From Acidobacteriota bacterium (GTDB taxonomy: Bacteria > Acidobacteriota > Aminicenantia > UBA2199), in assembly GCA_025456205.1 (NCBI GenBank), contig JALOLA010000012.1:1-36756 (forward strand): 36,756 bases of DNA, written 5' to 3'. The stretch's first letter is position 1. The number at the start of each line of letters is the position of its first letter. Position numbers and translations under genes: made by a program. Below are positions 8,593 to 24,514 of this stretch, piece by piece. The notes under the pieces are model-generated. The model was not told the DNA's origin. It saw only the letters and a program-made list of their open reading frames with translations, and made no database searches.

Positions 8593-8727
8593 TGAAGAGA
8601 AGGCAAAGGGAAGAGAGAGGGAAAGGCAGAGGGAAAACAGAGTGAGACAGAAATCTCGAAGGGTTTTTTCACTCTCTCTTCCCTTTTTCTTCTCTTACTC
8701 TTCCCTCTCTCTTCCCTTTTTTTCTCC
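8593..8727. repeat. Purine/pyrimidine inverted repeat between tatC and the tRNA promoter
   Basis: A purine-rich left arm (about 8593-8640) and a pyrimidine-rich right arm (about 8668-8727) contain an exact 19-bp inverted match (8605-8623 against 8701-8719); a third related block, CTCTCTTCCCTTTTT, lies at about 8674-8688. The right arm runs into the tatC coding end and supplies its charged tail. The space between the tatC stop and the tRNA -35 is filled almost completely by this element, which could fold into a long hairpin in the tatC transcript. Confidence 0.75.
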
Positions 8728-9872: not shown

Positions 9873-12812
9873 TCATGGGTGCTCCGGGATCTTGACGCGG
9901 TCCTTGCCGCAGATCAGCTGCAGGTGGCCGTCGCGCACCGCCGCGGCCAGGTCGGCGAACAGCTCCTGCCCGGCGCCGGCGAAGGGCACCGGGCCAGGGC
10001 GGATGCCGATGACCAGGTTGCGGCCGTTGTGCTTGGCCAGGTAGAGGGCATTGTCGGCCATGGAAACCACCTGCTGCCAGCTCAGCTTTTCCTGGTCGCC
10101 GCTGAGGAAGGGATAATGGCAGAAGCCGATGCTCACCGTCTTCTTGATGTGCTGCCCGCCGGGCATCTGAAAGGCCGCCTTCTCGATCCCCTGGCGGACG
10201 CGCTCGGCGAGCTGAAGGGCATCGGCCTGGCTCGCCTGGCGGGTGATGATCATGAACTCCTCGCCGCCCCAGCGCACCACCGTGTCGGACTGGCGCATCA
10301 TTGCCTGCAGCCGGCTGGCGATCTCGATGATCACGGCGTCGCCGGCCTCGTGGCCGTGCAGGTCGTTGACTTTCTTGAAATGATCGACGTCGAGCATGAA
10401 CACGCCCAGGGCGGCCGCCTTTTCGTCAAAGGGCTTCTTGCCGCTGCGCACGTTGTGCAGCTCGCGCTGGATGATGCTCGTGTCTTCGCGGATCGTCTCG
10501 TCCAGGAAGCGGCGGTTCTTCAAACCGGTCAAGGGGTCGGTGATGGACAGCAGTGCCAGCTCGCGGTTCTTCTCGGCGATCTCATTGGTCCGTGACTGGA
10601 CGATCCCTTCCAGCCTCCTCTTCTGCTTCTCCAGGGCGCCGACGCGCAGCTTGATGAACAGCAGGACCAGGCCCAGCCCGAGTAGCGCCTCCAGGACCAG
10701 GAACCACCAGCGCTTCCAGAAGGGAGCGGCGATGGAGAAGATGATGCGCCGGTCGGCCCCGGTCCAGTTGCCGGTGCCGCCGCTGCTGGCCAGCACCGAG
10801 AAGGTGTAGGTCCCGGGCGGCAGGTTGGTATAGCGCACCGATGTGGCCCGGCCGGGCGACGACCAGTCGCTGTCGAAAGGGAACAGGCGCGTCTTGTAGG
10901 ACATCGGGTTCTCATGGCTGGTGGTCGGGCAGATGAAGCGGAATTCGATGGTGTCCTGGTCGTGGCGCAGGGCGGCGGTGAAAGGCAGGCGGCGTGGCGA
11001 GCCGTTGACCAGGGGATCACGGATGACCAGCACCGGCATGGGCGCCGGGACCACGCCCGCGGGACAGGCATATTCCACCAGGCCGGGAACGATGCCGAAA
11101 TAGAGGTTGCCGTTGGCGGCCTTCAGGGCGGCGTGGACGCAGCCCTCGTCGCCGAACAGCCCGGTCTGGCTGTTGAAGAAGGCGTGGGCGGAGTCGGGAC
11201 CGATGCGCTCCAGGGCGCGGGTGCTGTTCAGCCAGATGTTGCCGCTGTCGTCGCGCAGGACCGACCAGATGTCGTTGTGCAGCAGGCCCTGTTCCTGGGT
11301 GATGCGGGTGAGGGTGCCGTCCCTGAGCCAGTACACGCCGGACATCTCGGAGGCCACCAGCACCTCGCGCGGCGAGACCACGCGGATGTCGTTGATGACG
11401 ACCCGGCCGACCAGCTTCTCCCACTCGCTGGCGACGAACGCCTCGTCGCGGAACAGCTGCAGCCCCCGGCGCGTGCCGACCAGCAGGGAGCCCGGCTCGA
11501 GCTCGGCGACGTCCCAGACGATCAGGTCGTTCAGCCCGGAGCGGAACCAGCGGAATTCGCTGCCGTCGTAGCGCAGCAGGCCGCGGTCGGTGGCGAACCA
11601 GGCCCTGCCGCGGCTGTCACGGATGGCATAGAGGGTGTTGACGCCGACGGTCAGGCTGCGCAGGCGGTCGCCGCCGTCCCACTCCAGTATCTCTCCCTCG
11701 CGGCAGCCTAGGAGGAAGCGCCGGTCCTCCAGGCGGACGATGGCGCGGATGGAGCGGTTCTTCAGGCGCGCGTTGACGGCGAAGGGGCGCAGGCGGCCGT
11801 CACGCAGCTCGGCGATGCCGTCGTCGCAGGCCAGAAGCACGCCGCCGCCATGCTCCAGCATGTCCCAGACCTGGGTGGATGGCAAGCCGTCCTCGGGGCC
11901 GTACATGCGGAACAGGTGGCGGGAGAGCTGCGACAGCCCGAACTCGCTGCCGATGAAGACATTGTTCTCGCGGTCGAGGAGCAGCTTGGAGGCGCGGTCA
12001 TAGACGAGACCGTTGGCCGTGCTCAAAGCCGTCGCGCTTCCCGTCTGCAGGTTCTTGTGAAAAACGCCGCTGCGGCTGGCGATCCACAGGTTGTTCCTGC
12101 CGTCGAACAGGATGTCGCTGACGTTGTTCATCCCGGCGGGCAGACCGGAGTACTTCTTGAACTCGCCGAAGGGGTTGAGGATGTACAGGCCGCCCTGGCA
12201 GCCGATGAAGAGGTGCCCGGCGGTCTCCTTGACGAAATTGATCGCCTCCGGGCCGGGATAGCGCTGCAGGCTGCCGTTGCGCAGCAGGAAAACGGCGTCG
12301 CTGCTGAAAAAGGCCATGCCGGTGGCGCCGCTGGCCAGGCCGCCCAGGCGCGTCGCGTCCGCAAAGCGGTTGTAGCGCGACGTGACCCCGTCGCGGACCG
12401 TGTAGAGCGCGTCCGCGGTCAGGACCCAGAGGGTGAAATCGATGCCGCTGTAGGCAATGGCGCGCACGAAATTGTCGGGAAGGGGCCAGGCGGAGATGCG
12501 CCCGCCCAGGATGCGGTTCAAACCGTCCTGGCTGGACACCCAGATGGCGCCGTCGCGGTCCATCTCCAGCCCGGTGATGAAATTGCCGGCCAGGCCTTCC
12601 TGCGAGGTGAAGGTCTCGAAGCGGCTGCCGTCGAAGCGGCCCAGGCCGGCCTGGGTGCCCACCCAGATGAAGCCGTCGCGGTCCTGCAGCAGGGCGGTGA
12701 TGTTGCTCTGCGGCAGCCCCGCGGAGCTGCGATAATTGATGAAGGGATAGCGCACCGAGAGCAGGGGCAAGGCGAGGACGAGCAGGAAAAAAAGGAAGGA
12801 CGCCCGTTTCAT
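9873..12812 (-). CDS. Two-component-type propeller sensor with Y_Y_Y domain and GGDEF diguanylate cyclase
   Basis: A 979-aa membrane sensor. A signal/anchor (MKRASFLFFLLVLALPLL) precedes about 14 propeller repeats of the Reg_prop type (for example DRDGFIWVGTQAGLGRFDG, DRDGAIWVSSQDGL, NNLWIASRSGVF) to about residue 600, a Y_Y_Y domain (about 630-690, LPPGTYTFSVLASS), a TM helix (about 698-720), a coiled coil, then GGDEF with active-site GGEEF near residue 847. RQSD five residues before GGEEF is a good product-inhibition I-site, so it should make cyclic-di-GMP. Start ATG 12812 is chosen because an extended -10 lies 8 nt upstream and the signal peptide begins there; ATG 12830 is the alternative. 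Directly upstream of tatA/tatC. Confidence 0.93.
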   Translation of the reverse strand: MKRASFLFFLLVLALPLLSVRYPFINYRSSAGLPQSNITALLQDRDGFIWVGTQAGLGRFDGSRFETFTSQEGLAGNFITGLEMDRDGAIWVSSQDGLNRILGGRISAWPLPDNFVRAIAYSGIDFTLWVLTADALYTVRDGVTSRYNRFADATRLGGLASGATGMAFFSSDAVFLLRNGSLQRYPGPEAINFVKETAGHLFIGCQGGLYILNPFGEFKKYSGLPAGMNNVSDILFDGRNNLWIASRSGVFHKNLQTGSATALSTANGLVYDRASKLLLDRENNVFIGSEFGLSQLSRHLFRMYGPEDGLPSTQVWDMLEHGGGVLLACDDGIAELRDGRLRPFAVNARLKNRSIRAIVRLEDRRFLLGCREGEILEWDGGDRLRSLTVGVNTLYAIRDSRGRAWFATDRGLLRYDGSEFRWFRSGLNDLIVWDVAELEPGSLLVGTRRGLQLFRDEAFVASEWEKLVGRVVINDIRVVSPREVLVASEMSGVYWLRDGTLTRITQEQGLLHNDIWSVLRDDSGNIWLNSTRALERIGPDSAHAFFNSQTGLFGDEGCVHAALKAANGNLYFGIVPGLVEYACPAGVVPAPMPVLVIRDPLVNGSPRRLPFTAALRHDQDTIEFRFICPTTSHENPMSYKTRLFPFDSDWSSPGRATSVRYTNLPPGTYTFSVLASSGGTGNWTGADRRIIFSIAAPFWKRWWFLVLEALLGLGLVLLFIKLRVGALEKQKRRLEGIVQSRTNEIAEKNRELALLSITDPLTGLKNRRFLDETIREDTSIIQRELHNVRSGKKPFDEKAAALGVFMLDVDHFKKVNDLHGHEAGDAVIIEIASRLQAMMRQSDTVVRWGGEEFMIITRQASQADALQLAERVRQGIEKAAFQMPGGQHIKKTVSIGFCHYPFLSGDQEKLSWQQVVSMADNALYLAKHNGRNLVIGIRPGPVPFAGAGQELFADLAAAVRDGHLQLICGKDRVKIPEHP

Positions 12813-12820
12813 AGGGCCTG

Positions 12821-12829
12821 ATTTTAGCA
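12821..12829 (-). promoter_or_regulatory. Extended -10 promoter immediately before the GGDEF-sensor ATG
   Basis: Minus strand TGC-TAAAAT, with TAAAAT at 12821-12826 and 8 nt to the ATG at 12812. A -35 match is poor (TTGCAC, 18-bp spacer). The predicted start site falls at or next to the ATG, so the mRNA would be leaderless; no Shine-Dalgarno is seen. Confidence 0.55.
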
Positions 12830-12851
12830 CATATCCGCGCGAAGGTGCAAA

Positions 12852-13016
12852 AAGAAGACGACAGACGTTAGATGCTGGACGTTAGCAAGAAAAGGAGCTG
12901 CAGCGAAAGTTTTCCCCTTCATGCGCCAATTCATGGGGTCCTTGCTCTGGCTGTTTTCTTGCTGACGACTAATGTCTGACGTCTGACGTCTGACGTCTAA
13001 CGTCTAACGTCTATTT
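12852..13016. repeat. Heptamer-array inverted element E1
   Basis: Left arm 12852-12886 is five in-register 7-mers (ending CGACAGA, CGTTAGA, TGCTGGA, CGTTAGC). Right arm 12961-13016 is eight (GCTGACG, ACTAATG, TCTGACG three times, TCTAACG twice, TCTATTT). The arms are inverted relative to each other; the 74-nt loop starts AAGAAAA (12887) and ends TTTTCTT (12960), extending the stem. The last right-arm heptamer contains the TAG stop of the minus-strand gene at 13011. The left arm stops 3 nt before the -35 region of the GGDEF-sensor gene. The period of seven and the position argue against coding. Confidence 0.85.
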
Positions 13017-14396
13017 TTTTTCGTTGACGATCTCTTTCAGCACCCGCGTCAGGAACGAGTGGAAGGCCCTGAGCGTCGGTTCGAACTCCGCGGAGAAATT
13101 GGTGCGGTTGAGGTTGTCATAATAGCTGAGGAACTCGTTCCAGTCCTTGTACAGCAGGTAGTTCAGGTCGCTTTCCATGAACTGGTTGATGTCGAAGAAT
13201 ATCTCGGACGGGGTGATGCTGCCTTTGCGGGTGAAATAATCGTTGATCTTGGTATGCAGGCGGATGAGCTTCTTCTTGACCTCGAGCGATTTCTGCTTGC
13301 GCGAGACGTACTTCTCGAAGATGCTGCTGCCGCTGATGCCGGGCTTGAACAGGTGGGCCACGGTCTCGATCAGCTCCTGCACGGCGATCTCGGTGATGAC
13401 CACGAGGTTCTGGATCATGCGCCGCTTCTTGAGCTTGTTGCTCTCGTTGTCGAAATAAAGCGGCAGCTCGCCTTCCCAGACCTTCTTGTATTCCATGCGG
13501 AAGCTGTTGAAGATGTCGCCGACCGGCCCCGCTTTCTTCTTCAGCTCCGCGTCGGACTGCAGGCTCTGCCAGAGGGCCGTGTCGTTGAAATTGATGAGGT
13601 CCTCCATGTTCCGCTTCAGGGAGAGGGCCAGGGGGATGGCCAGGTCCAGGTACTTGCTCTTGTCCACGTTCAGCTCGATGAAATTGTTGATCTTCAGGAT
13701 GCGGAAGGAGAGGATGAAGAAGATGCCCAGGTTCTTGCGGATGTTCTTGTCCTTGCAGGAGGCGATGATGCCCGAGATGTCGGGCTGGTAGATCTTGTCC
13801 ATCTTGGAGATGAACTGCTTTTTCAGCAGCGAGATGAGGATGGGATTGTTGAGCAGCTCGCGGTGGTACAGCTTCTTGATCGAGAGGTAGGCGCGCGGCG
13901 AGACCTGGTCGAGGCGCAGGATCTCGCTCAGCAGGTTGCGGAAGCTCTGCAGGAAGATGCGGAAGCTGTAGAACCAGGACTCGGGGGAGTAGAGCTCCTT
14001 CAGGTTGGGAAAGGACTTGTCCATGTTCTGTTCCAGCATTTTTTCCACGACGTATTCCTCGAAGTTGAGGAAATAGGTGTCCTTCTTGAAGTCCAGCTCC
14101 TTGAGCAGGGCGGTGATGCGCGCCGACGCCTGGTGCAGGCTGAAAACGTAGAACTCGTAGTTGCGCTCGCCGGGAGCGTGGAACTTGAAGATCAGGTTCT
14201 CCAGGTAGGTCGAGGAGTTGAACTCCTCGATGCTCTCGAACCACAATTTCAGCTCGAACAGGTTGAGCATCATCTTTTCCTGGTCGATCTTGTCCAGCCA
14301 GCCCGAGAAGATCTCCTCCCACTTTTTTTCAGGATCCAGGGCGCCGCTCTCCTTTGAAAAAAACTCGCCGATATTTTCCACTTCTCTCTTTTCCAT
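13011..14396 (-). CDS. Protein of unknown function, mostly alpha-helical, cytoplasmic
   Basis: 461 residues, not recognised. There is no signal peptide and no convincing membrane helix (KNLGIFFILSFRIL is a short hydrophobic stretch inside a helical region). The composition is rich in Lys, Glu, Leu, Phe and Asn, with many aromatic-rich helices such as ESWFYSFRIFLQSFRNLL and NYLLYKDWNEFLSYYDNL, and AT-richer codon choice in places than its neighbours. Codon pattern and length support a real gene. Start: ATG 14396 is placed by a sigma-70-like promoter ending 7 nt upstream; the reading frame stays open to 14528, but the extra residues look like noncoding GC-rich DNA. It is divergent from the penicillin-acylase-family gene and ends in the heptamer element E1. 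Confidence 0.85.
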   Translation of the reverse strand: MEKREVENIGEFFSKESGALDPEKKWEEIFSGWLDKIDQEKMMLNLFELKLWFESIEEFNSSTYLENLIFKFHAPGERNYEFYVFSLHQASARITALLKELDFKKDTYFLNFEEYVVEKMLEQNMDKSFPNLKELYSPESWFYSFRIFLQSFRNLLSEILRLDQVSPRAYLSIKKLYHRELLNNPILISLLKKQFISKMDKIYQPDISGIIASCKDKNIRKNLGIFFILSFRILKINNFIELNVDKSKYLDLAIPLALSLKRNMEDLINFNDTALWQSLQSDAELKKKAGPVGDIFNSFRMEYKKVWEGELPLYFDNESNKLKKRRMIQNLVVITEIAVQELIETVAHLFKPGISGSSIFEKYVSRKQKSLEVKKKLIRLHTKINDYFTRKGSITPSEIFFDINQFMESDLNYLLYKDWNEFLSYYDNLNRTNFSAEFEPTLRAFHSFLTRVLKEIVNEKK

Positions 14397-14403
14397 ACCG
14401 GGA

Positions 14404-14432
14404 ATTGTAGCCAATCCTCCGGCTTTTTGCAA
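14404..14432 (-). promoter_or_regulatory. Sigma-70-like promoter predicting a leaderless mRNA for the unknown gene
   Basis: Minus strand TTGCAA (14427-14432), 17-bp spacer, TACAAT (14404-14409), then exactly 7 nt to the ATG at 14396. The start site would be the A of the ATG; GGAGG lies upstream of the -10, too far to serve as ribosome-binding site. Confidence 0.6.
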
Positions 14433-14510
14433 GCGCGACGGCGCCGCGCCCGCATCGCCCCGGCAAGCGGGGCCCGCCGGCCCGCCGCGTTTTTTCTCCC
14501 GCGGCAAACG

Positions 14511-14530
14511 TGATATAATGGCGCGCAAGG
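14511..14530 (+). promoter_or_regulatory. Perfect extended -10 before the penicillin-acylase-family gene
   Basis: TGA-TATAAT (TATAAT at 14514-14519). A start near 14526 leaves a leader of about 10 nt carrying AAGG (14527-14530), 6 nt before the GTG start at 14537. No good -35 is seen. Confidence 0.65.
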
Positions 14531-14536
14531 TCGCCA

Positions 14537-16831
14537 GTGAAAATCCTCAAGATCGCCAGCATCGCCCTGTTCTCCCTGCCGCTGTTCGCCGCCATGGTCG
14601 TTTATTTCTTTTTCCGCTCCACCATCCCGGCCTGGGACGGCGTGCAGACCGGCTGCGGCGTCGCCCGCGAGACGGTCATCGAGCGCAATGCCCATGGCGT
14701 GCCGACGATCAAGGCCGAAAATGATCCCGACCTGTTCTTTGCCGTCGGCTTCGCCCACGCCCAGGACCGGCTGTTCCAGATGGACCTGCAGCGCCGGGCG
14801 GCCTCCGGCAGGCTGGCCGAGGTCCTGGGCGAGCCGGGGCTGGAGCGGGACATCTGGCAGCACTACCTGCAGGCCGCTTCTGGTATCGAGCGCAGCCTGC
14901 GCGCCCTCAGTCCGGGCGTGCGGGCGCTCCTCGAGCAGTACTGCCGGGGCGTCAACCGCGCGCTTGCCGGCCAGGGGCTGCCCCCGGAGTTCCATATCCT
15001 GCGCTATGCCCCCGAGCCCTGGCAGGTGCGCGATGTCGTGGCCGCGATGAAGTACCTGGAGGGAGAACTGGTTTTCTCCGGTGGGGAGCTGAACCACGCC
15101 CGCCTGCTGGCGGCTCTGGCCCCGGGGCATTCCCGCGACTGGCTGGCCGCGCCGCGGGCGGATTTCGACAACAGCCGCTCTTTTTGGCCCAGGGCCCTGT
15201 CCGCCCAGCCGCTGTCGCGGCTCCTGGCGGCCGAGACCGCCTGGGACGACTACGATCCAACGGCAGGGGCCTGGGCCGTGGCCGGTTCCCGCACCAGCAG
15301 CGGCCAGGCCATCCTGGCCAACGAATTCCCCTGGCGGCCCCGGCTGCCGGCCCCTTTTTACCAAATCGCCGGGCGCACGCCGAACCGGGAGATCACAGGC
15401 AACACGCTGCCGGGCATCCCCTTCATTTTCAGCGGCCGCAACCGCCACCTCGGCTGGGGCGTGAGCCCGGACCGCTGCGATGCGCTCGATTATTTCCTGC
15501 TGGAGCGCCATCCCGGCAACGAGCGCCTCTACCGCTGCGACGGGCGCTGGCTCGAGCTCGAATACCATGAAAAACGGATCGCCTGTCGCGGCCGCCGGCC
15601 TGTCCAGTTGCGGCTGGCCTTCTCCCGGTTCGGCCCGGTCATCGAGGCCGGCGGCGGGCTCCTGGCCGTGCGCTCCATGGTGCAATCCCGCTCCCACGCC
15701 CTGGAGGCGCTGTTCCTGATGAACGCGGCCCGCAGCCCGAAGGACCTGGCCTTGGCGCTGCGCAAGTTCACCGCCCCGGCGCTGCGCGTGGTGTTCGCCG
15801 ACCGCAGGGGCAATATCGGGGCGCTGCGCTCCGGGCTGCAGCCCGTGCGCGGCCGGGGCGACGGCCAGCTGCCGCTGCGGTCACGGGCGCTCGGCGATGC
15901 CTGGAGAGGCTTCGCCGCTGCCGCGGACAGGATGGTCCTCAACCCGGCCAAGGGCTGGGTCGGTTCCGGCGACCTGGATTCCGCGAACCCGTCTCCCGGC
16001 TTCTTCAGGTTCGCCGCGGCCCCGGACGACAAGGCGGGGCGCCTGGCCGCGATCCTTTCCGACCCCTCGCGCCTGGACCTGGCGGCGGCGGCCCGGCTGC
16101 AGAACGATGCCCGCGTGGCAACAGCGGAGTTCCTGGTCACGTTCATCCAGGACATGCCGCTGGCTTCCGCCGAGGCCGAGCAGGTGCGCAACGTCCTGTC
16201 CGCCTGGGACCTGAATGCCGGCGAAGGCCCGGGGCCTGCGTTTTTCTACGAGTTCGAAAGGCGATTGGCCGCCGCCTTTTTTTCCCCGGCCCTGCGCGAT
16301 GCCGCCGCCGTCGCCGGCGTGAGGCCGCGCTGGCTTCGCGGGGCGCTGCAAAACCCGGGCCTGCTGCCGCGGCGCGACATCGCCGCCGCCGTCGAGCAGA
16401 GCCTTGCCGGCGCCCACGAGTCCTTTCGCCTCCAGGCGGGCAGCCAGGGCGACGGCTGGAACTGGCAGGTACAGCATACGGCCGGTTTCTCGCACCCGCT
16501 GGGGTCCGTCTTTTTTTTGCGCCCGCTCTTTGCGCGCGGGCCTTTGAGCGTACGCGGAGGCAACACCTGCCTGCTGGACACCGGCTTCGAGCCCCAGGCC
16601 GGATTTCGCGCCACCCGCCTGGCCGCCTACAAGATGATCCTTGATCTCTCCGCGCTGCCCGCGTCGCTGCTGGTCTATCCCGGCGGCCAGAGCGGCCACC
16701 CCCTCAGCCCGGCCTACGACGACCAGCTCGGGGCATATCTTTCCCAGAAATACCTGAAAATGGAAGATGCGGGCCGGCGCCGCCATCGGCTGCGGCTGCT
16801 CCCGGCCACCGGGAATGCCGCGTCGCTCTAG
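14537..16831 (+). CDS. Penicillin acylase (S45, Ntn-hydrolase) family protein lacking the expected nucleophile
   Basis: A 764-aa protein beginning with a membrane anchor (KILKIASIALFSLPLFAAMVVYFFF). Family landmarks: RNAHGVPTIKAENDPDLFFAVGFAHAQDRLFQMD (A-chain), AGSRTSSGQAILANE, LPGIPFIFSGRNRHLGWGVS, GNIGALRSGLQPVR and the late SGHPLSPAYDDQ. In active members the chain is cut at a Gly-Ser in GSNxW just before xVxGSRT; the new N-terminal Ser is the nucleophile. Here the aligned residues are Thr242-Ala243-Gly244-Ala245-Trp246, so the Ser position is Ala. Either it is a catalytically dead, uncleaved homologue, or Thr242 has taken over with a one-residue shift. The GTG start follows AAGG by 6 nt. 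Confidence 0.9.
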   Translation: MKILKIASIALFSLPLFAAMVVYFFFRSTIPAWDGVQTGCGVARETVIERNAHGVPTIKAENDPDLFFAVGFAHAQDRLFQMDLQRRAASGRLAEVLGEPGLERDIWQHYLQAASGIERSLRALSPGVRALLEQYCRGVNRALAGQGLPPEFHILRYAPEPWQVRDVVAAMKYLEGELVFSGGELNHARLLAALAPGHSRDWLAAPRADFDNSRSFWPRALSAQPLSRLLAAETAWDDYDPTAGAWAVAGSRTSSGQAILANEFPWRPRLPAPFYQIAGRTPNREITGNTLPGIPFIFSGRNRHLGWGVSPDRCDALDYFLLERHPGNERLYRCDGRWLELEYHEKRIACRGRRPVQLRLAFSRFGPVIEAGGGLLAVRSMVQSRSHALEALFLMNAARSPKDLALALRKFTAPALRVVFADRRGNIGALRSGLQPVRGRGDGQLPLRSRALGDAWRGFAAAADRMVLNPAKGWVGSGDLDSANPSPGFFRFAAAPDDKAGRLAAILSDPSRLDLAAAARLQNDARVATAEFLVTFIQDMPLASAEAEQVRNVLSAWDLNAGEGPGPAFFYEFERRLAAAFFSPALRDAAAVAGVRPRWLRGALQNPGLLPRRDIAAAVEQSLAGAHESFRLQAGSQGDGWNWQVQHTAGFSHPLGSVFFLRPLFARGPLSVRGGNTCLLDTGFEPQAGFRATRLAAYKMILDLSALPASLLVYPGGQSGHPLSPAYDDQLGAYLSQKYLKMEDAGRRRHRLRLLPATGNAASL

Positions 16832-16832
16832 G

Positions 16833-16853
16833 CCGCCGGCGCGCGGTTTTTTT
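16833..16853 (+). terminator. Possible intrinsic terminator after the penicillin-acylase-family gene
   Basis: CCGC/GCGG arms (16833-16836, 16843-16846) with a 6-nt loop, followed by seven T. The stem is short, but the T-run right after the stop codon makes it plausible. Confidence 0.45.
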
Positions 16854-16893
16854 CGTCGCCCGCTGAGCAACCATGGCTTCAGCGCGGCTTTTT

Positions 16894-16902
16894 TGCTATA
16901 CT
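16894..16902 (+). promoter_or_regulatory. Extended -10 predicting a leaderless mRNA for the anti-sigma factor gene
   Basis: TGC-TATACT (TATACT at 16897-16902) lies exactly 7 nt before the ATG at 16910. No convincing -35 and no Shine-Dalgarno are present. Confidence 0.6.
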
Positions 16903-16909
16903 TGCGCTA

Positions 16910-17332
16910 ATGGCCAAGAAAGAGAACAGGATCGCGATCGCCTTCAAGAGCGACTTGAAGTACACCGAATTGAGCATCCTGGTGCTGGGATTCATCAGGA
17001 AGCTGCTGGACATCGCCGACGAGGTCTTTTTCAAGATCGAGATCTCGCTGCGCGAAGCGACCAACAACGCCATCGTCCATGGCAACGGCCGCGACCTGAG
17101 CAAGCTGGTGCACATGGAGTTCGTCTGGGACAAGTCGTTCCTGCGCATCCATGTGCGCGACGAGAACAACCGCCAGGTCGACCTGCAGGAGGTGGAGGAC
17201 AAGATCCAGGGCTGCCACCTGCTCTCCTTCAACGGCCGCGGCATCATGATCATTCGCAGCTACATGGACCGTTTCGAGTTCCATTGTCGTCCCGGCGGCA
17301 GCGAGGTGGTCATGGAAAAGAAACTGCCGTGA
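16910..17332 (+). CDS. RsbW-like anti-sigma regulatory factor (HATPase_c_2 serine kinase family)
   Basis: A 140-aa GHKL-fold protein. The N-box is visible in EISLREATNNAIVHGN and the G-box in NGRGIMIIRSYMD, followed by the closing strand GGSEVVMEKKL. Proteins of this family bind an alternative sigma factor or phosphorylate an STAS antagonist; neither partner is encoded in the window. It opens a unit with tsaB and rimI: its TGA overlaps the tsaB GTG (GTGA). The start at 16910 is fixed by the extended -10 only 7 nt upstream. The pairing of a partner-switching component with t6A tRNA-modification genes is unusual. Confidence 0.9.
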   Translation: MAKKENRIAIAFKSDLKYTELSILVLGFIRKLLDIADEVFFKIEISLREATNNAIVHGNGRDLSKLVHMEFVWDKSFLRIHVRDENNRQVDLQEVEDKIQGCHLLSFNGRGIMIIRSYMDRFEFHCRPGGSEVVMEKKLP

Positions 17333-18042
17333 ACCTGCTCTGCTTCGACACGTCGTCGCGCGACGCCTCCATCGCCGTGCTGCGCGACGAGGAGGTCGTC
17401 CTGGAATACAACTTCTCCTCGCGCGCCGAGCTCTCGGCCATGCTTATCCCCAGCCTGGAGTTCCTGCTGCGCTCGCTGGGACTGGGCGTGCGCCAGGTCG
17501 ACCTGTTCGGCGTTTCCGTCGGGCCCGGGCTCTTCACCGGCATCCGCGTCGGCCTGGCCACCCTGAAAGGCCTGGATTTCCCGGGCGGCAGGCCCGTGGT
17601 CGGCGTGAATGCCCTCGAGGCGCTGGCCTGCAAGTTCGCCGACACCCGCCACACCGTCGTGCCCATGATCGACGCCCGCAAGGGGGAAACCTATCTCGCC
17701 GCCTACCGCTTCGACCCGCCGGAGGCCGGGGGCGGAATGGTCGAGCTGCTGGCCCCCTGCCTGCTGCGGGTGGCGGACGCCGTCCCCCTGCTGGAGAAGT
17801 TCCCCGACAAGGTTTTCGTCGGCAGCGGCGCCGAAAACCATGGCGAGCTGCTGCGCCGGGATTTTCCCGGCGCCCGTCTCCTGTACCGCTCCAATTTCCT
17901 GGCAACGGAGATCGGCCGCATCGCACTGGAGCGCTTCCGCCTGGGGCAGTACGTTACCGACCTGCAGCAGCTCCATCCGCTCTATATCCGCAAGCCCGAT
18001 GCCGAGAGCAGCCGCGAGCGCACGCCTGACGACGCGGATTAG
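17329..18042 (+). CDS. tsaB: tRNA threonylcarbamoyladenosine biosynthesis protein TsaB
   Basis: TsaB (YeaZ) is the inactive ASKHA-fold partner that dimerises with TsaD to make t6A37 in ANN-decoding tRNAs. The 237-aa sequence has LLCFDTSSRDASIAVL at the N-terminus, GVSVGPGLFTGIRVGLATLKGL (the hallmark GPGSFTGLRIG-type motif, with Leu for Ser), VGVNALEALA, and MIDARKGETYLAAY. The start is GTG at 17329, overlapping the previous stop; the frame is open further upstream but enters the anti-sigma gene. The next gene, rimI, begins inside its 3' end. tsaD is not in the window. Confidence 0.93.
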   Translation: MNLLCFDTSSRDASIAVLRDEEVVLEYNFSSRAELSAMLIPSLEFLLRSLGLGVRQVDLFGVSVGPGLFTGIRVGLATLKGLDFPGGRPVVGVNALEALACKFADTRHTVVPMIDARKGETYLAAYRFDPPEAGGGMVELLAPCLLRVADAVPLLEKFPDKVFVGSGAENHGELLRRDFPGARLLYRSNFLATEIGRIALERFRLGQYVTDLQQLHPLYIRKPDAESSRERTPDDAD

Positions 18043-18535
18043 GCGTGCGCAGGCCTCCGACCTGCCGGCCGTGGAGAGCATCGAGCGCCAGCTGTTCTCC
18101 AATCCCTGGTCGCGCGAATACTATGCCGCGGAGCTGAGCAACCATTTTTCCCACTTTTATGTCGCCGAGGCCGTCCCGGAAAGCGCCGGGAAATGTCCCG
18201 CGGCCCGCGGCGGTGCCCAGGAGGCCCCACTGGTCGGCTATCTGCTCTTCTGGCGGCTCGGAGCCGAGCTCGAGCTGCACAAAATCGCCGTGGGCAGGGC
18301 CTGGCAGCGCCAGGGCCATGCCGCCCGCCTGTTGGAATTCTTCATCCAGGCCGGCCGTTCCTGGGGAAGCGAGCGCGCGGTGCTGGAGGTCCGGGAGTCC
18401 AATGTCGCGGCCATGCGCCTGTATGAAAGATATGCCTTTCGCCCCGTCGCCCGCAGGAGCGATTATTATACGCGGCCGCAGGAGGACGCCCTGGTCTACT
18501 GGCTGGATTTCACCGGCAGCGTGGCGGACTTATAG
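17999..18535 (+). CDS. rimI: Ribosomal-protein-alanine N-acetyltransferase RimI-like (GNAT)
   Basis: A 178-aa GNAT acetyltransferase. RRAQASDLPAVESIERQLFSNPW is the RimI N-terminal block, ELHKIAVGRAWQRQGHAARLL carries the acetyl-CoA pyrophosphate loop (RQGHAA), and EVRESNVAAMRLYERYAFRPVARRSDYY is the conserved C-terminal block. RimI acetylates the N-terminal Ala of ribosomal protein S18; tsaB-rimI is a very common pair. The start is uncertain: the only ATG is at 17999, 44 nt inside tsaB and without a ribosome-binding site. CTG 18026 or ATT 18038 would fit the domain edge better. A Gly/Ala/Pro-rich insert (about residues 60-75) interrupts the middle. Confidence 0.85.
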   Translation: MPRAAASARLTTRIRRAQASDLPAVESIERQLFSNPWSREYYAAELSNHFSHFYVAEAVPESAGKCPAARGGAQEAPLVGYLLFWRLGAELELHKIAVGRAWQRQGHAARLLEFFIQAGRSWGSERAVLEVRESNVAAMRLYERYAFRPVARRSDYYTRPQEDALVYWLDFTGSVADL

Positions 18536-19612
18536 CAGATCGCGGTCGTGGCGGATGTTGTCCTCGATGCTCATCTTTTCGGCGATCCAGAAATCGAGGC
18601 TGGTCTTGGCGAAGATGGAGATGATCCCCGGGTCGAACTGCGTGCCCGAGTATTTCAGCAGCTCGCTGGCGGCGTTCTCGAAGGACAGGGCCTTCTTGTA
18701 GGGGCGGTCGGAGGTCATGGCGTCGATGGCGTCGGCGATATGGAATATCCGCGCCCCCAGGGGAATGCGTTCACCGGACAGCCCGTCCGGGTAGCCGCTG
18801 CCGTCGAAGGCCTCATGGTGGTGCAGCACGATCTGGGCCGCGTCCTCGAGGAACTTGATGCGCTTGAGCACGTTATAGCCGATGGTGGGGTGGTTCTTCA
18901 TGATCTGCCACTCTTCGCGATCCAGCTTGTCCGGCTTGCGCAAAATGGCATCGGGAATGCCGATCTTGCCGATGTCGTGGAGCAGGGCGCCGTATTCGTA
19001 GACCTTCAGCGTGTTCTTGTCGCTGATGTTCATCAGCTCGGCCAGCTTCTGCGTGAAGCGCACCACGCGCAGGGAATGGCCCTGCGTTTCCGTGTCCCGG
19101 GTGTCCAGGGCGGTGACCATGGCCCGCAGGGTGAAGTTGTAGGTCTTGTCCAGCTCGATGAGCGCCTGCTTCAGTTCGCCGGTCCGCTCCTCGACCATTT
19201 TTTCCAGCTGCTTCTGGTATTCCTTGTTCTCCAGGACCAGGCGGCGCTTTTCCAGCGCCTTGTTGGCGACGAAGGCAACCTCGTTGAGCTTGAAGGGCTT
19301 GGAGACGTAGTCGTAGGCGCCCTTGGACATGGCGGCGATGGCCGACTCGATGTCCTTCACCGCCGAGATCATGATGACCATCACGTCATCGTCCAGCGCC
19401 TTGACCTCCTCGAGCAGGTCCAGGCCGGTCTTGCCGGGCATGCGGATGTCGGACATGAGCAGGTCGAAGTCGGCGGCGGCCTTGAACTTCTCCAGCGCCT
19501 CGAAGGCATTGGCCGCCAGCTGGCATTCGTAGCCCTCGTTCTCCAGAAAATCGCGCAGCAGCTCGCGGATGTCCTTCTCGTCGTCGGTGATCAGTATCTT
19601 TCCCTTTCTCAT
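18530..19612 (-). CDS. Response regulator with HD-GYP domain (putative cyclic-di-GMP phosphodiesterase)
   Basis: A 360-aa protein. The receiver domain (1-125) has the acidic pocket TDDE, phosphoacceptor Asp55 (LLMSDIRMPG), and YVSKPF with the conserved Lys. A coiled coil (about 130-165) links to an HD-GYP domain with YGALLHDIGKIGIPD (HD), HHHEAFDGSGYPDGL (GYP) and HIADAIDAMTSDRPYK. HD-GYP enzymes hydrolyse cyclic-di-GMP, so it may oppose the GGDEF sensor at 9873. ATG 19612 is chosen because the receiver starts there and an extended -10 lies 7 nt upstream. Its stop TAA overlaps the rimI stop on the other strand. Confidence 0.95.
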   Translation of the reverse strand: MRKGKILITDDEKDIRELLRDFLENEGYECQLAANAFEALEKFKAAADFDLLMSDIRMPGKTGLDLLEEVKALDDDVMVIMISAVKDIESAIAAMSKGAYDYVSKPFKLNEVAFVANKALEKRRLVLENKEYQKQLEKMVEERTGELKQALIELDKTYNFTLRAMVTALDTRDTETQGHSLRVVRFTQKLAELMNISDKNTLKVYEYGALLHDIGKIGIPDAILRKPDKLDREEWQIMKNHPTIGYNVLKRIKFLEDAAQIVLHHHEAFDGSGYPDGLSGERIPLGARIFHIADAIDAMTSDRPYKKALSFENAASELLKYSGTQFDPGIISIFAKTSLDFWIAEKMSIEDNIRHDRDLL

Positions 19613-19619
19613 CGATTGC

Positions 19620-19648
19620 AGGATAGCAGATGGGAAAGATTTAGTAAA
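19620..19648 (-). promoter_or_regulatory. Extended -10 promoter predicting a leaderless HD-GYP mRNA
   Basis: Minus strand TGC-TATCCT (TATCCT at 19620-19625) with 7 nt to the ATG at 19612; TTTACT at 19643-19648 is a 4/6 match to -35 at a 17-bp spacing. No Shine-Dalgarno. Confidence 0.5.
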
Positions 19649-19682
19649 GCCGGCCGGCGCCGTTCCCGGATCTGCGCCGGGC

Positions 19683-21107
19683 TCAATAGCGGTAATGGTC
19701 GGGCTTGAAGGGGCCATCCGCCGTGATCCCCAGGTAGGCGCACTGCTCCGGGGTCAGGCGGGTGAGCGCGACCCCCAGCGCATCCAGGTGCAGGCGGGCC
19801 ACTTCCTCGTCGAGGCGCTTGGGCAGGGTGTAGACCTTTCTTTCCAGGCCGCCTTTGGCCAGCTCCATTTGGGCCAGGCACTGGTTGGTGAAGCTGCAGC
19901 TCATGACGAAGCTGGGATGGCCGGTGGCGCAGCCGAGGTTGACCAGGCGCCCTTCGGCCAGCACGATGATCGAGCGGCCGGACCTCAGGGTCCACTTGTC
20001 GACCTGGGGCTTGATGGTCATTTTCCTGCAGCCGGCGGTGGTTTCCAGGTAGTGCATGTCGATCTCGCTGTCGAAGTGGCCGATGTTGCAGACGATGGCC
20101 TCGTCCTTCATCATCTCCATATGGCGGCCGCTGATGACGTCGCAGTTGCCGGTGGCGCTGACGAAAATGTCGCCGACCGGGGCCATGGCATCCATGGTGG
20201 ATATCTCGTAGCCCTCCATGGCCGCCTGCAGGGCGCAGATGGGGTCGATCTCGGTGACGATCACCCGGGCGCCGAAGCCGCGCATGGACTGGGCGCAGCC
20301 CTTGCCCACGTCGCCGTAGCCGCAGATCACGACCTTCTTGCCGGCCATCATGATGTCGGTGGCGCGCTTGATGCCGTCGGCCAGCGATTCGCGGCAGCCG
20401 TAGAGATTGTCGAACTTGGACTTGGTCACCGAGTCATTGACGTTGATGGCCGGGAACAGGAGGCGGCCCTCGGCCTGCATCTGGTAGAGGCGATGAACGC
20501 CGGTGGTCGTTTCCTCGGACACGCCGCGGATGCGGGCGCTGGCGCGGGTCCAGTGCTGCGGGTCGCGCTCGACGGACTCACGCAGGCGCTTCCAGACCAC
20601 GGCCATCTCCTTGTTCTCCGGCAGGTCCTTCAGCAGGGCGGGGTCCTTTTCGACCCTTACTCCCTGATGGACCAGCAGGGTGGCGTCACCGCCGTCGTCG
20701 ACGATCAGGTCGGGTCCGGAGCCGTCGGGCCAGGTCAGCGCCTGCTCGGTGCACCACCAGTACTCTTCGAGCGTCTCGCCCTTCCAGGCGAAGACGGCCG
20801 CTCTGCCCGCCTTGGCGATGGCGGCGGCGGCGTGGTCCTGGGTGGAGAAGATGTTGCAGGAGGCCCAGCGCACGTCGGCACCCAGTTCGACCAGCGTCTC
20901 GATGAGCATGGCCGTCTGGATGGTCATGTGCAGGCTGCCGGTCACCCGCAGCCCCTGCAGGGGCTTGAGCGGGCCGTATTTCCGGCGCATGGCCATCAGG
21001 CCGGGCATTTCCGCCCGGGCCAGCTCCATCTCCTTTCGGCCCCAGTCGGCCAGGGAAAGGTCGGCGATCTTATAGGGCAGCGTGCGATCCTTGTCGGTTG
21101 TTTTCAT
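19683..21107 (-). CDS. ahcY: Adenosylhomocysteinase (S-adenosyl-L-homocysteine hydrolase)
   Basis: AhcY reversibly splits SAH into adenosine and homocysteine using tightly bound NAD. The 474-aa sequence is of the long bacterial type (with the 40-residue insert). Motifs: [16 protein letters not shown] (substrate), [29 protein letters not shown] with the catalytic Lys/Asp/Asn group, [11 protein letters not shown] (NAD Rossmann Gly-rich loop), [11 protein letters not shown], and C-terminal PFKPDHYRY, the canonical end that reaches into the neighbouring subunit. AGGAG 7 nt before the ATG supports the start. It follows metK on the same strand, completing two steps of the activated methyl cycle. 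Confidence 0.98.
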
Positions 21108-21123
21108 TTTGCTCTCCTAAGAA

Positions 21124-21152
21124 ATTTTATCATGAAAAATCTTAGACGTCAG
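21124..21152 (-). promoter_or_regulatory. Promoter of ahcY, with -35 contributed by the heptamer element
   Basis: Minus strand TGA-TAAAAT (TAAAAT at 21124-21129) is a good extended -10. Seventeen bp upstream, CTGACG (21147-21152) is a 4/6 match to TTGACA and is part of the first clear heptamer of element E2. The ahcY ribosome-binding site AGGAG lies just downstream. Confidence 0.6.
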
Positions 21153-21287
21153 ATGTCAGACGTTAGAAGTCAGCAAGAAAGGTGGGAAAAAGCACAACCA
21201 TCTTATTCTTGCAGCCATCCTCTGTTTATCATCTGACGCCTTGCTATTTCTTGCTGATGCCTGACATCTAACGTCTACCGTCTGAGT
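21140..21287. repeat. Heptamer-array inverted element E2
   Basis: Left arm 21140-21174 has five 7-mers (TCTTAGA, CGTCAGA, TGTCAGA, CGTTAGA, AGTCAGC). Right arm 21253-21287 has five (GCTGATG, CCTGACA, TCTAACG, TCTACCG, TCTGAGT) in inverted orientation. The 78-nt loop begins AAGAAA and ends TTTCTT. Arm register, loop ends and loop length match E1. The right arm abuts the metK stop codon (TGA, 21289-21287) and the left arm ends at the ahcY promoter, so the element fills the whole intergenic space. Confidence 0.85.
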
Positions 21288-22444
21288 CATTTGCTCTTGG
21301 CTAAAGCCTTGAGCTCCTTGACCTTGTCCAGCTTCTCCCAGGGGAATTCGCTGCGGCCGAAGTGGCCGTTGGACGCCGTCTGCTTGTAGATCGGCCGTTT
21401 CAGCTTGAGCTCCCTCAGGATGTCGCCGGGCTTGAGCGGGAAGACCTTGCGGATCATGGCCGTGATCTTCTCCTCGCTCAGCGTCCCGGTGCCGAAAAGG
21501 GTGACGTTGATCGAGACCGGCTCGGCCACGCCGATGGCATAGGCCAGCTGCACCTCGCATTTTTTCGCCAGGCCGGCGGCCACGACGTTCTTGGCGATGT
21601 AGCGGGCCACGTAGGCGCCGGAGCGGTCGACCTTGCTGGGGTCCTTGCCGGAGAAGGCGCCGCCGCCGTGCCGGCCCATGCCGCCGTAGGTGTCGACGAT
21701 GATCTTGCGGCCGGTCAGCCCGGCGTCGGCATAGGGGCCGCCGACGACGAACTTGCCGGTGGGGTTGATGTAGAACTTCGTTTCCGGGGTGAGCCACTTG
21801 CCGCAGACGGGCTTGACGACGTGCTTGATGATGTCCTTCTCGATGCGGGAATGACCGATCTTGTCATCGTGCTGGTTGGAGACCACCACGGCGGTGATGT
21901 GCCGGGGCTTGCCGTTCTCGTACTCCACGGTCACCTGGGCCTTGCCGTCGGGGCCGAGGTAGGGGATGGTCCTGTTCTTGCGCACCTGGGCCAGCCGCGC
22001 CGTCAGCTTGTGGGCCATGGCGATGGGCAGGGGCATGTAATTCGCGGTCTCGCTGGTGGCGTAGCCGAACATCATGCCCTGGTCGCCGGCGCCCTGCTCG
22101 TGGCTGCGCGAGGCGTCCACGCCCTGGGCGATATCGGGGGACTGTTCTTCGATGTGCACCAGCACGGCGCAGGTCTCGTACTCGATGCCGTAGCGCGACT
22201 GGGTGTAGCCGATCTCCTTGAGGGTTTGGCGCACGATGGTCGGGATATTGACGTAGGCCTTGGTGGTCAGCTCGCCGGCCACCAGCACCATGCCGGTCTT
22301 GGTCAGCGCTTCGATGGCGACGCGCGAATCCGGGTCCTGCTCCAGGCAGGCGTCGAGGATGCTGTCGGATATCTGGTCGCATACCTTGTCCGGGTGCCCG
22401 GCGCAGACCGACTCCGACGTGAACAGATATTTCCCCTTGATCAT
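21287..22444 (-). CDS. metK: S-adenosylmethionine synthetase
   Basis: MetK makes SAM from methionine and ATP. The 385-aa sequence has the family signatures [17 protein letters not shown] (ATP/metal, N-terminus), [12 protein letters not shown] (the GAGDQG motif), and [16 protein letters not shown] (the [10 protein letters not shown]-loop-like motif), and ends with the FGRSEFPWE block. Start: ATG 22444 with GGAGG 5 nt upstream; the in-frame GTG at 22450 overlaps the ribosome-binding site and is rejected. The leader is only about 33 nt, too short for a SAM riboswitch. The neighbouring ahcY recycles the SAH formed from SAM. Confidence 0.98.
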
Positions 22445-22483
22445 TTTCACCTCCAGGGAGATCGTTAGGTTGGCGGAATCTCA

Positions 22484-22512
22484 ATACTAACAAATACGGT
22501 CATATATGTCAA
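22484..22512 (-). promoter_or_regulatory. Sigma-70 promoter of metK
   Basis: Minus strand consensus TTGACA (22507-22512), 17-bp spacer, TAGTAT (22484-22489) with TG one base before it (extended -10). The start site would be near 22477, giving a leader of about 33 nt that ends in GGAGG. Confidence 0.85.
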
Positions 22513-22522
22513 CTTACAATCG

Positions 22523-22813
22523 TGACGCGTGACGCGTAACGCGTGACGCGAAACAGCAAGAAAAAATCCAAATCCCAAACACTCAATTCCAGACAAGCAC
22601 CAATGATCCAATGGCAAAAATAAGGAGAACAAGCACTGCGTGATGCGTTATGTGAAAGAAACAGATCGTACATTTCTCTTTCTCATCACGCATTATGAAA
22701 TCCTGAAAGATCGTTCGCGCATCACTTAGACTGATTATCCATTATTCTTTCAAATCACGAATCACGAATTACGTATACGGCTTCTCGTCACGCGTTACGC
22801 GTCACTTGTCACG
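22523..22813. repeat. Heptamer-array inverted element E3 (with nested hairpin), filling the metK-ggt space
   Basis: Left arm 22523-22557: TGACGCG, TGACGCG, TAACGCG, TGACGCG, AAACAGC, then AAGAAA, the same loop start as E1 and E2. Right arm 22786-22813: CGTCACG, CGTTACG, CGTCACT, TGTCACG, inverted. Inside lie a second inverted pair (about 22635-22662 and 22668-22695, built on TGCGTGA/TGCGTTA and its complement, with GAAAGAAA and TTTCTCTTTC closing a hairpin) and a third direct array at 22753-22780 (AATCACG twice, AATTACG, TATACGG). No gene is visible in this 378-bp space, which otherwise holds only the metK promoter. The right arm ends 9 nt from the ggt stop. Confidence 0.8.
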
Positions 22814-22822
22814 GATGATCGT

Positions 22823-24514
<1,692 letters not shown>

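Follow-up and report, generated by a model that had tools for sequence, protein, structure and literature searches.

In an uncultured member of the Aminicenantes, three intergenic spaces of the window, the whole stretch of 36,756 nucleotides that was analysed, hold arrays of degenerate 7-nt repeats that face each other across a loop. A first-pass annotation took these elements, here E1, E2 and E3, for members of one family. What kind of element are they, and how do they come to share a design while differing in sequence?

Architecture of the elements in the window

Inspection of the sequence confirmed all three elements where they had been described (Table 1). When a consistent register is kept, the left arm of E1, both arms of E2 and the outer arms of E3 contain four heptamers each instead of the five originally counted, and the E1 right arm is the only one to exceed four (7 units, 12963-13011). 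The E1 left arm and the adjoining GCAAGAAAA together span 12857-12893. The AAGAAA and TTTCTT reported at the loop ends are an inner purine tract and its pyrimidine counterpart, which most paired elements of the genus possess. All three elements lie close to genes: the E1 right arm ends on the C of the CTA at 13011-13013, which is the TAG stop codon of the minus-strand gene upstream; the E2 right arm is found immediately past the metK stop; and E3 has its outer left arm 8 nt from the -35 box of the metK promoter (TTGACA, 22512-22507) and its outer right arm 9 nt beyond the end of the gamma-glutamyltranspeptidase gene (22823).

Table 1. Positions and parts of the repeat elements in the window.
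Feature	Position	Strand	Basis and remarks
E1 left arm, four heptamers GACGACA GACGTTA GATGCTG GACGTTA	12857..12884	+	sequence
E1 inner purine tract GCAAGAAAA	12885..12893	+	sequence; equivalent tract in paired arms genus-wide
E1 inner pyrimidine tract TTTTCTTGC	12954..12962	+	sequence
E1 right arm, seven heptamers TGACGAC TAATGTC TGACGTC (x3) TAACGTC (x2)	12963..13011	+	sequence; fold z=-5.4
E2 left arm GACGTCA GATGTCA GACGTTA GAAGTCA	21145..21172	+	sequence
E2 tract GCAAGAAA, directly after left arm	21173-21180	+	sequence
E2 inner pyrimidine tract ATTTCTTGC	21246..21254	+	sequence
E2 right arm TGATGCC TGACATC TAACGTC TACCGTC	21255..21282	+	sequence; fold z=-4.3
E3 outer left arm CGTGACG CGTGACG CGTAACG CGTGACG	22521..22548	+	sequence
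E3 inner tract CGAAACAGCAAGAAAAA	22549..22565	+	sequence
E3 interior, one side of another 7-periodic module (AAATCCC / TTTGGAN family)	22562..22625	+	
E3 interior, small nested inverted pair (GCGTGATGCGTTATG...GAAAG / CTTTC...CATCACGCATTATG)	22638..22698	+	sequence
E3 inner one-sided array AATCACG AATCACG AATTACG	22753..22773	+	sequence
E3 outer right arm CGTCACG CGTTACG CGTCACT TGTCACG	22786..22813	+	sequence; fold z=-5.5
E0, plan of E1-E3 with 11-nt units (GGGAAGAGAGA-type / TCTCTCTTCCC)	8594..8726 (approx.)	+	

E3 is made up of nested elements. Its inner array of AA-type units is one-sided. A 185-nt stretch of E3 is 77% identical to another locus of the same genome, and interiors similar to its small nested inverted pair occur at other loci. 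A further element, E0, which the first-pass annotation did not contain, sits between a gene and a tRNA promoter, and three other genomes (G015, G002 and G005) have 11-mer arrays in this tRNA gap as well. The predicted RNA folds of E1-E3 gave z values of -4.3 to -5.5, and among known RNA families only a tRNA was matched in the window.

Genus-wide distribution and shared design

E1-E3 are part of a swarm of inverted arrays that extends through the genus. A 26-nt pattern had 148 matches in the genome versus 0 for the reversed control, and was present in all 16 sampled genomes of the genus. In 468 kb of unselected genus DNA, 64 intergenic arrays of period 7 were counted versus 0-1 at periods 8-10, and an inverted partner accompanied 28 of the 64 (control, 0). 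Chance low-complexity sequence is ruled out by the reversed-pattern controls together with the period scans. The idea of a related intergenic family is thus borne out throughout the genome and in every sampled species of the genus: the search for further copies clearly returned many, with the 7-nt register kept.

The design does not vary: an arm of four heptamers is followed inward by a purine tract (RAAGAAA) and a loop of about 65-150 nt, beyond which the first half recurs as its mirror image, so that inverted ends of short tandem direct repeats flank a variable loop, as in foldback elements. In paired elements of the genus the purine fraction of the inner tract is about 0.8 versus about 0.5 outside. 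Arm length is close to 31 nt (4 units plus 3) in all families, after which the period-7 match drops from about 0.8 to a background of 0.33. Four is the modal number of units in each named family, and some arrays reach 8-16. The strict alternation of the variable base that had been proposed is not general, and a higher-order 14-bp unit is not supported, identity between units being nearly equal at distances 1, 2 and 3 (0.85, 0.84 and 0.86).

About 20 recurrent heptamer families share this architecture, 6-, 8- and 11-mer versions being rarer; the unit NNTNACG is therefore too narrow, and the pattern ascribed to local homogenisation of NN is better described by separate dispersed families. The CGTRACG family, for instance, was present in 5/5 members of the genus versus 0/292 other genomes of the phylum. 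Within one family the unit order GAGG was found in 30 of 65 arms (p=1e-13). When arrays were masked, a paralogue in the same genome was obtained for 37% of the element gaps versus 6% of other gaps. Since unit order is inherited within a family and interiors recur at other loci, copies disperse, and the earlier preference for copying over chance holds. The idea that units containing TRA serve to supply stop codons in every frame was abandoned, as the GTTCGAN and TTTGGAN families are without any stop codon.

Genomic placement and orthologous gaps

Elements are located just past stop codons and ahead of the next promoter, at a median of 17-22 nt from the upstream stop, and gaps between divergent genes are depleted of them. 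Comparison of orthologous gaps gave 65 pairs with both gaps occupied, 16 with one only and 132 with neither; in 40 of the 65 doubly occupied pairs the family was different, a pattern that points to a repeat class with rapid turnover and not to chance. In the ggt-metK gap, an element was present in 10/10 genomes whose metK-upstream sequence still reaches ggt, with several families represented. At least one array had grown by seven in-register units, 49 bp, between species. No clean insertion or target-site duplication, the latter expected of a MITE of the DDE-transposase type, was seen in the alignments of orthologous gaps, where the divergence between genomes limits the power.

Origin of the elements

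We consider that E1-E3 are probably, though far from certainly, copies of non-autonomous, dispersed foldback-type elements with a MITE- or REPIN-like behaviour. In each, four short direct repeats make up either arm, the second arm being inverted relative to the first, and an inner purine/pyrimidine tract borders a loop that varies and is often nested; terminal inverted repeats of the MITE type and dispersed copies are both present. Such elements would spread by a DNA-level process, through a hairpin or cruciform, driven by an activity that may be independent of any one heptamer sequence. Persistence of copies would be confined to sites that tolerate insertion, past a stop codon and ahead of the following promoter. 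Older copies would disappear or have newer, often nested copies written over them, leaving the gap filled and the word changed.

Candidate sources for this activity were examined. The fetched contigs, which cover a part of each genome, yielded no autonomous copy in which two arms enclose a gene, and most of the long inverted pairs that might have indicated an autonomous parent were matches arising by chance within the CGT family, which is abundant. Y1/RAYT-type transposases (Y1_Tnp) were equally common in element-free relatives and were not flanked by arrays, which discards mobilisation of the RAYT/IS200 type. Repeat addition by a reverse transcriptase or a telomerase-like enzyme was rejected since RVT_1 is missing from most carrier genomes, and a phage origin was rejected with 0 and 1 matches in 2.9 million viral contigs. 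That twenty words should share one architecture is odd for classical transposase recognition, an observation that counts against a mobile element.

The elements might instead be boundary hairpins maintained by the host, structures that would mark 3' ends in both directions, as terminators, stabilisers of mRNA 3' ends or insulators of transcription, and be kept by selection at the ends of transcription units, with shape fixed and sequence free. Their location between stop codon and promoter, the strong folds of E1-E3 and sites that stay occupied though the sequence changes, the ggt-metK gap among them, are consistent with this explanation, which we nevertheless regard as doubtful. The transcribed strand has no excess of G-U over A-C, and therefore gives no sign of upkeep or selection at the RNA level. 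Co-variation between arms at variable positions is weak (shuffle p about 0.02-0.08), which argues against tight co-evolution. U-tracts lie within the loop and not after the stem, only E1 having an adjacent T-run (13014-13021), outside the arm; thus, the stem followed by a U-tract of an intrinsic terminator is not present, and a terminator scan was at or below chance. Nor does selection for a hairpin account for the four repeats of 7 nt.

Heptamer microsatellites growing by slipped replication, with the inverted partner produced by template switching, would be a still less probable origin. The seven-unit growth of one array indicates that slippage acts too, arrays of 8-16 units exist, and other phyla commonly have heptamer arrays, which often lack an inverted partner. 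However, slippage alone does not yield arms fixed at four units, a common inner tract, a non-random inherited order or dispersed interiors.

Comparison with known repeats

The closest precedents for the foldback-type elements described here are the four-unit heptamer repeats of Xanthomonas and Nostoc and of Geobacter metallireducens, some of them in inverted pairs, so the kind is not without precedent; the first-pass annotation had known of no named family like it. The first-pass reading of E1-E3 is, as a whole, partly supported. In G. metallireducens, paired tandem-repeat sites of four hepta- or octanucleotides (five in class 3) have been interpreted as predicted regulator sites or as RNA elements (Aklujkar et al. 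2009, PMC2700814). They resemble our elements in their four tandem units, opposite-strand pairs, variable distance and multicopy occurrence, whereas that report gives no orthologous-site turnover or shared rule (PMC2700814). By analogy, the arms could be iterated sites, four per arm, for a chromosome-organising or global regulatory protein, and a tetrameric reader would suit a unit number that is constant across periods. We judge this improbable, since about 20 unrelated words in the genus and the switching of families at one gap between close species would require many proteins of shifting specificity.

In Xanthomonas and Nostoc, four units are clearly preferred in GGGNATC and GGGGA(C/T)T heptamers, one G-rich word per organism, which has been attributed to quadruplex formation, and 70-75 convergent inverted pairs occur in Xanthomonas (Rehm et al. 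2015, PMC4692102). Like ours, these repeats have a 7-nt unit with degenerate positions and a modal number of four, are intergenic and stop-adjacent, and are under-represented between divergent genes; in contrast, the genus studied here uses about 20 words, its elements have an inner purine tract and show nesting, and the word switches between orthologous gaps. That G-quadruplexes, as proposed for the Xanthomonas GGGAATC repeats, would explain our elements can practically be discounted in spite of the match in unit length, unit number, stop-proximal placement and inverted pairs: most families are without G-tracts, so the quadruplex explanation of four units is inapplicable, and sequence alone refutes it for families such as CGTRACG, GACGTYA, CGTRATT, GTTCGAN and AGTRAAA, which keep four units with no GG or GGG.

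TAACTGA direct repeats are known from Beggiatoaceae, Cyanobacteria and Bacteroidetes, with a suggested translational role (MacGregor 2015, PMC4679880). These and the cyanobacterial STRR heptamers are likewise intergenic arrays, patchy across phyla, but they are direct and essentially not inverted. REP, REPIN and BIME sequences and bacterial MITEs are small, inverted extragenic elements that occur in hundreds (RAYT-mobilised GTAG REPs, PMC3733652; REPINs, PMC3116915). They are also non-autonomous and avoid coding sequence; the arms of REPs, REPINs and BIMEs, however, are single palindromes, while those described here are four-iteron arrays with neither a GTAG-tagged palindrome nor an association with RAYT.

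The architecture is also similar to that of the Foldback (FB) transposons of Drosophila, in which inverted ends of short direct repeats surround a variable loop, and homology is not implied. FB transposons are eukaryotic and kilobase-sized, and some carry a transposase. Related foldback elements have been described in other eukaryotic studies (PMC3169594, PMC4168063).

Significance

Four-unit heptamer repeats in unrelated bacteria have so far been explained singly, as quadruplexes, regulator sites or translational control. Since about 20 families obey one rule (about 7 nt, four units, an inverted pair, an inner purine tract and stop-to-promoter placement), this rule cannot be a property of any single sequence. 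We speculate, with little confidence, that the elements constitute a distinct bacterial foldback class whose ends are recognised by repeat number and even spacing, four direct iterons plus a purine tract, and not by sequence. If so, one machinery would propagate many unrelated words, different families would re-occupy the same gap, and the four-unit heptamers of Xanthomonas, Nostoc and Geobacter would belong to the same class instead of being quadruplexes or regulator sites. The 16 related genomes, with position kept and sequence swapped, offer a natural experiment in which selfish spread can be told apart from host function and from slippage, and they raise a concrete question: what counts to four.

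Architecture and spread of the elements

The intergenic elements E1, E2 and E3 were found at the positions reported by the first-pass annotation and matched its description, except that the five-heptamer arms were not upheld: a consistent register gave four heptamers followed by a purine tract inward, with the E1 right arm (seven units) as the sole exception. Their minus-strand RNAs, whose folding had been proposed as a check, folded better than shuffled sequences by 4.3-5.5 standard deviations.

Repeat elements in the window and the genes flanking E1-E3
Feature	Position	Strand	Description
E0	8594-8726		inverted array of 11-nt polypurine/polypyrimidine units GGGAAGAGAGA / TCTCTCTTCCC; gene-tRNA promoter gap
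GGDEF/two-component-propeller protein	9873-12830	minus	flanks E1
E1	12852-13016		between minus-strand genes
Uncharacterised gene	13011-14528	minus	flanks E1
S-adenosylhomocysteine hydrolase	19683-21107	minus	flanks E2
E2	21140-21287		between minus-strand genes
metK	21287-22450	minus	flanks E2 and E3
E3	22523-22813		between minus-strand genes; composite
Gamma-glutamyltranspeptidase	22823-24514	minus	flanks E3

The window is an entire contig of a 2.59-Mb draft genome, and the further copies expected there were present, four TNACG in a 7-nt register giving 148 matches (palindromic CGTNACG arrays scoring on both strands) and the reversed pattern none. The relatives also carried the pattern, in 16 of 16 genomes of the genus (3 to 328 matches each); outside it, a few matches occurred in one of 25 other relatives. 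The four-unit CGTRACG arm was present in 5/5 sampled genus members and in 0/292 other genomes of the phylum, and 260 kb drawn from other genera within the family and class contained no period-7 arrays. The elements are real and genus-wide. The draft genome also holds a second, partial metK contig (G000:C74, L066), whose downstream sequence is identical in reading to that of the genus member G001 (G001:C47, L065) and which is probably a contaminant of the bin.

In an unbiased census of 468 kb, chosen regardless of pattern matches, 64 intergenic arrays had period 7, 13 period 6 and seven period 11, with 0-1 at each of periods 4, 5, 8, 9, 10 and 13. An inverted partner (>=70%, within 400 nt) accompanied 28 of the 64 period-7 arrays, and none did in a reversed-not-complemented control. 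With the inner purine tract as anchor, period-7 identity was ~0.8 across the first three blocks, fell to 0.5 in block four and reached background (0.33) farther out, which corresponds to ~31 nt, or four units plus 3 nt. Four was the modal unit count in every named heptamer family, and the rarer 6-, 8- and 11-mer arrays leaned the same way (small numbers). Clustering of 174 arms resolved 26 words, of which 20 had two or more members; the words include CGTRACG, GACGTYA, CGTRATT, GGCNNAN, GGTNNAC, AGTRAAA, AAATTCC and GTTCGAN. Across 35 arm pairs oriented by pairing alone, the inner tract was ~80% purine and the inward strand was G-richer in 29.

Placement relative to genes

With gene calls approximated from open reading frames and third-position GC, arrays were confined almost wholly to gaps of at least 100 bp. 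They sat in 28% of gaps between tandem genes, 24% of those between convergent genes and 11% of those between divergent genes (p=0.036); for all fetched DNA, which includes stretches selected for pattern matches, the figures were 39%, 33% and 14% (p=3e-5). The median distance past the upstream stop was 17-22 nt. The E1 right arm abuts the TAG that ends the upstream gene on the minus strand (12963-13013; AAAATAG, then ACGTTAG units), and an array of its family likewise begins right at TAG in the relative G015. On the minus strand at 21124-21152, the end of E2 provides a -35-like hexamer (CTGACG) that, with an extended -10 (TAAAAT), precedes the gene for S-adenosylhomocysteine hydrolase; part of a promoter may therefore derive from an element. 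E3 and E0 stop just short of -35-like boxes. In the tRNA gap of E0, from which an intrastrand triplex could form, 11-mer arrays also occur in G015, G002 and G005.

Turnover at orthologous gaps

At orthologous gaps the architecture comes back and the word differs between species. The gap 3' of the 13011-14528 gene holds GACGTYA in this genome and G015, CGTRACG in G009 and G005, CGTRATT in G002, ACGGCNN in G004 and GTTCGAN in G014 and G010; G003 has an 11-12-mer-like repeat there. No element was found 3' of orthologues of this gene where tatA comes directly next. Upstream of metK, the words were CGTRACG, GTTCGAN, AGTRACA, ACGGCNN and GGTTKAC. Among syntenic long-gap pairs, 65 carried an element in both species, of differing family in 40 of these; 16 carried one in a single species and 132 in neither, an odds ratio of 143. 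Because the comparisons are reciprocal and the species share ancestry, the counts are not independent, and the evidence lies in the contrast and not in a p-value. Long gaps lacking an element were mostly empty in both species; therefore, either the gaps that tolerate insertion are already saturated or selection favours occupancy.

Origin of the arrays

Upkeep as an RNA hairpin appears disfavoured, within limited power, because the sense strand of tandem-gap elements showed no preference for G-U (22) over A-C (28) pairs and, at variable positions, the two arms of one element matched only slightly better than arms of different elements. Sequence comparison indicates that copies derive from masters: the unit order G-A-G-G occurred in 30 of 65 listed four-unit CGTRACG arms from five species against 6.5 expected under independent unit variation (p=1e-13), 37% of element gaps had a same-genome gap match with arrays masked versus 6% of array-free gaps, and contig C27 carries a second copy of a 185-nt part of E3 (77% identity). 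Neither target duplication or clean insertion at orthologous gaps nor an autonomous copy among the fetched contigs was found, and Y1 transposases and reverse transcriptases, considered as movers, were without association with the elements. Slippage can also change arrays, since one gain of 49 bp was exactly seven units.

Many element interiors (e.g. 22562-22625; G009C31 near 88.3-89.2 kb) contain a shared module of another 7-periodic family (AAATTCCAAATCCCAAGCACC / TTTGGAATTTGGTGCTTGG), enclosed by arms of several different families. In some elements two arms of different families surround it, which hints that elements recombine with one another via the module. In metK flanks of related species (L058, L060, L061, L062), GTAGGGGCGACC...GGTCGCCC palindromes resembling GTAG-tagged REPs lie inside or adjoining heptamer elements, and could be mobilised by Y1 transposases present in those genomes.

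Relation to known repeats

Heptamer repeats favouring four units, in inverted pairs close to stop codons, are known from Xanthomonas, where quadruplexes were invoked (PMC4692102), paired tandem hepta-/octanucleotides termed regulator sites from Geobacter metallireducens (PMC2700814), and direct TAACTGA arrays from several phyla (PMC4679880). (TCTRACG)4 arrays were present across many phyla, with inverted pairs at only 8 of 109 loci; on named contigs (L105-L184; Flavobacteriia, Gammaproteobacteria, Acidobacteria, Syntrophales, Prevotellaceae, Armatimonadetes, Caldilineales and others) they were mostly direct and frequently right behind a stop codon. A literature search found no paper on the elements of this genus. 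The underlying kind is known but poorly understood, the multi-family design and site turnover are mostly new, and, of the readings considered, a dispersed foldback element has the best support.
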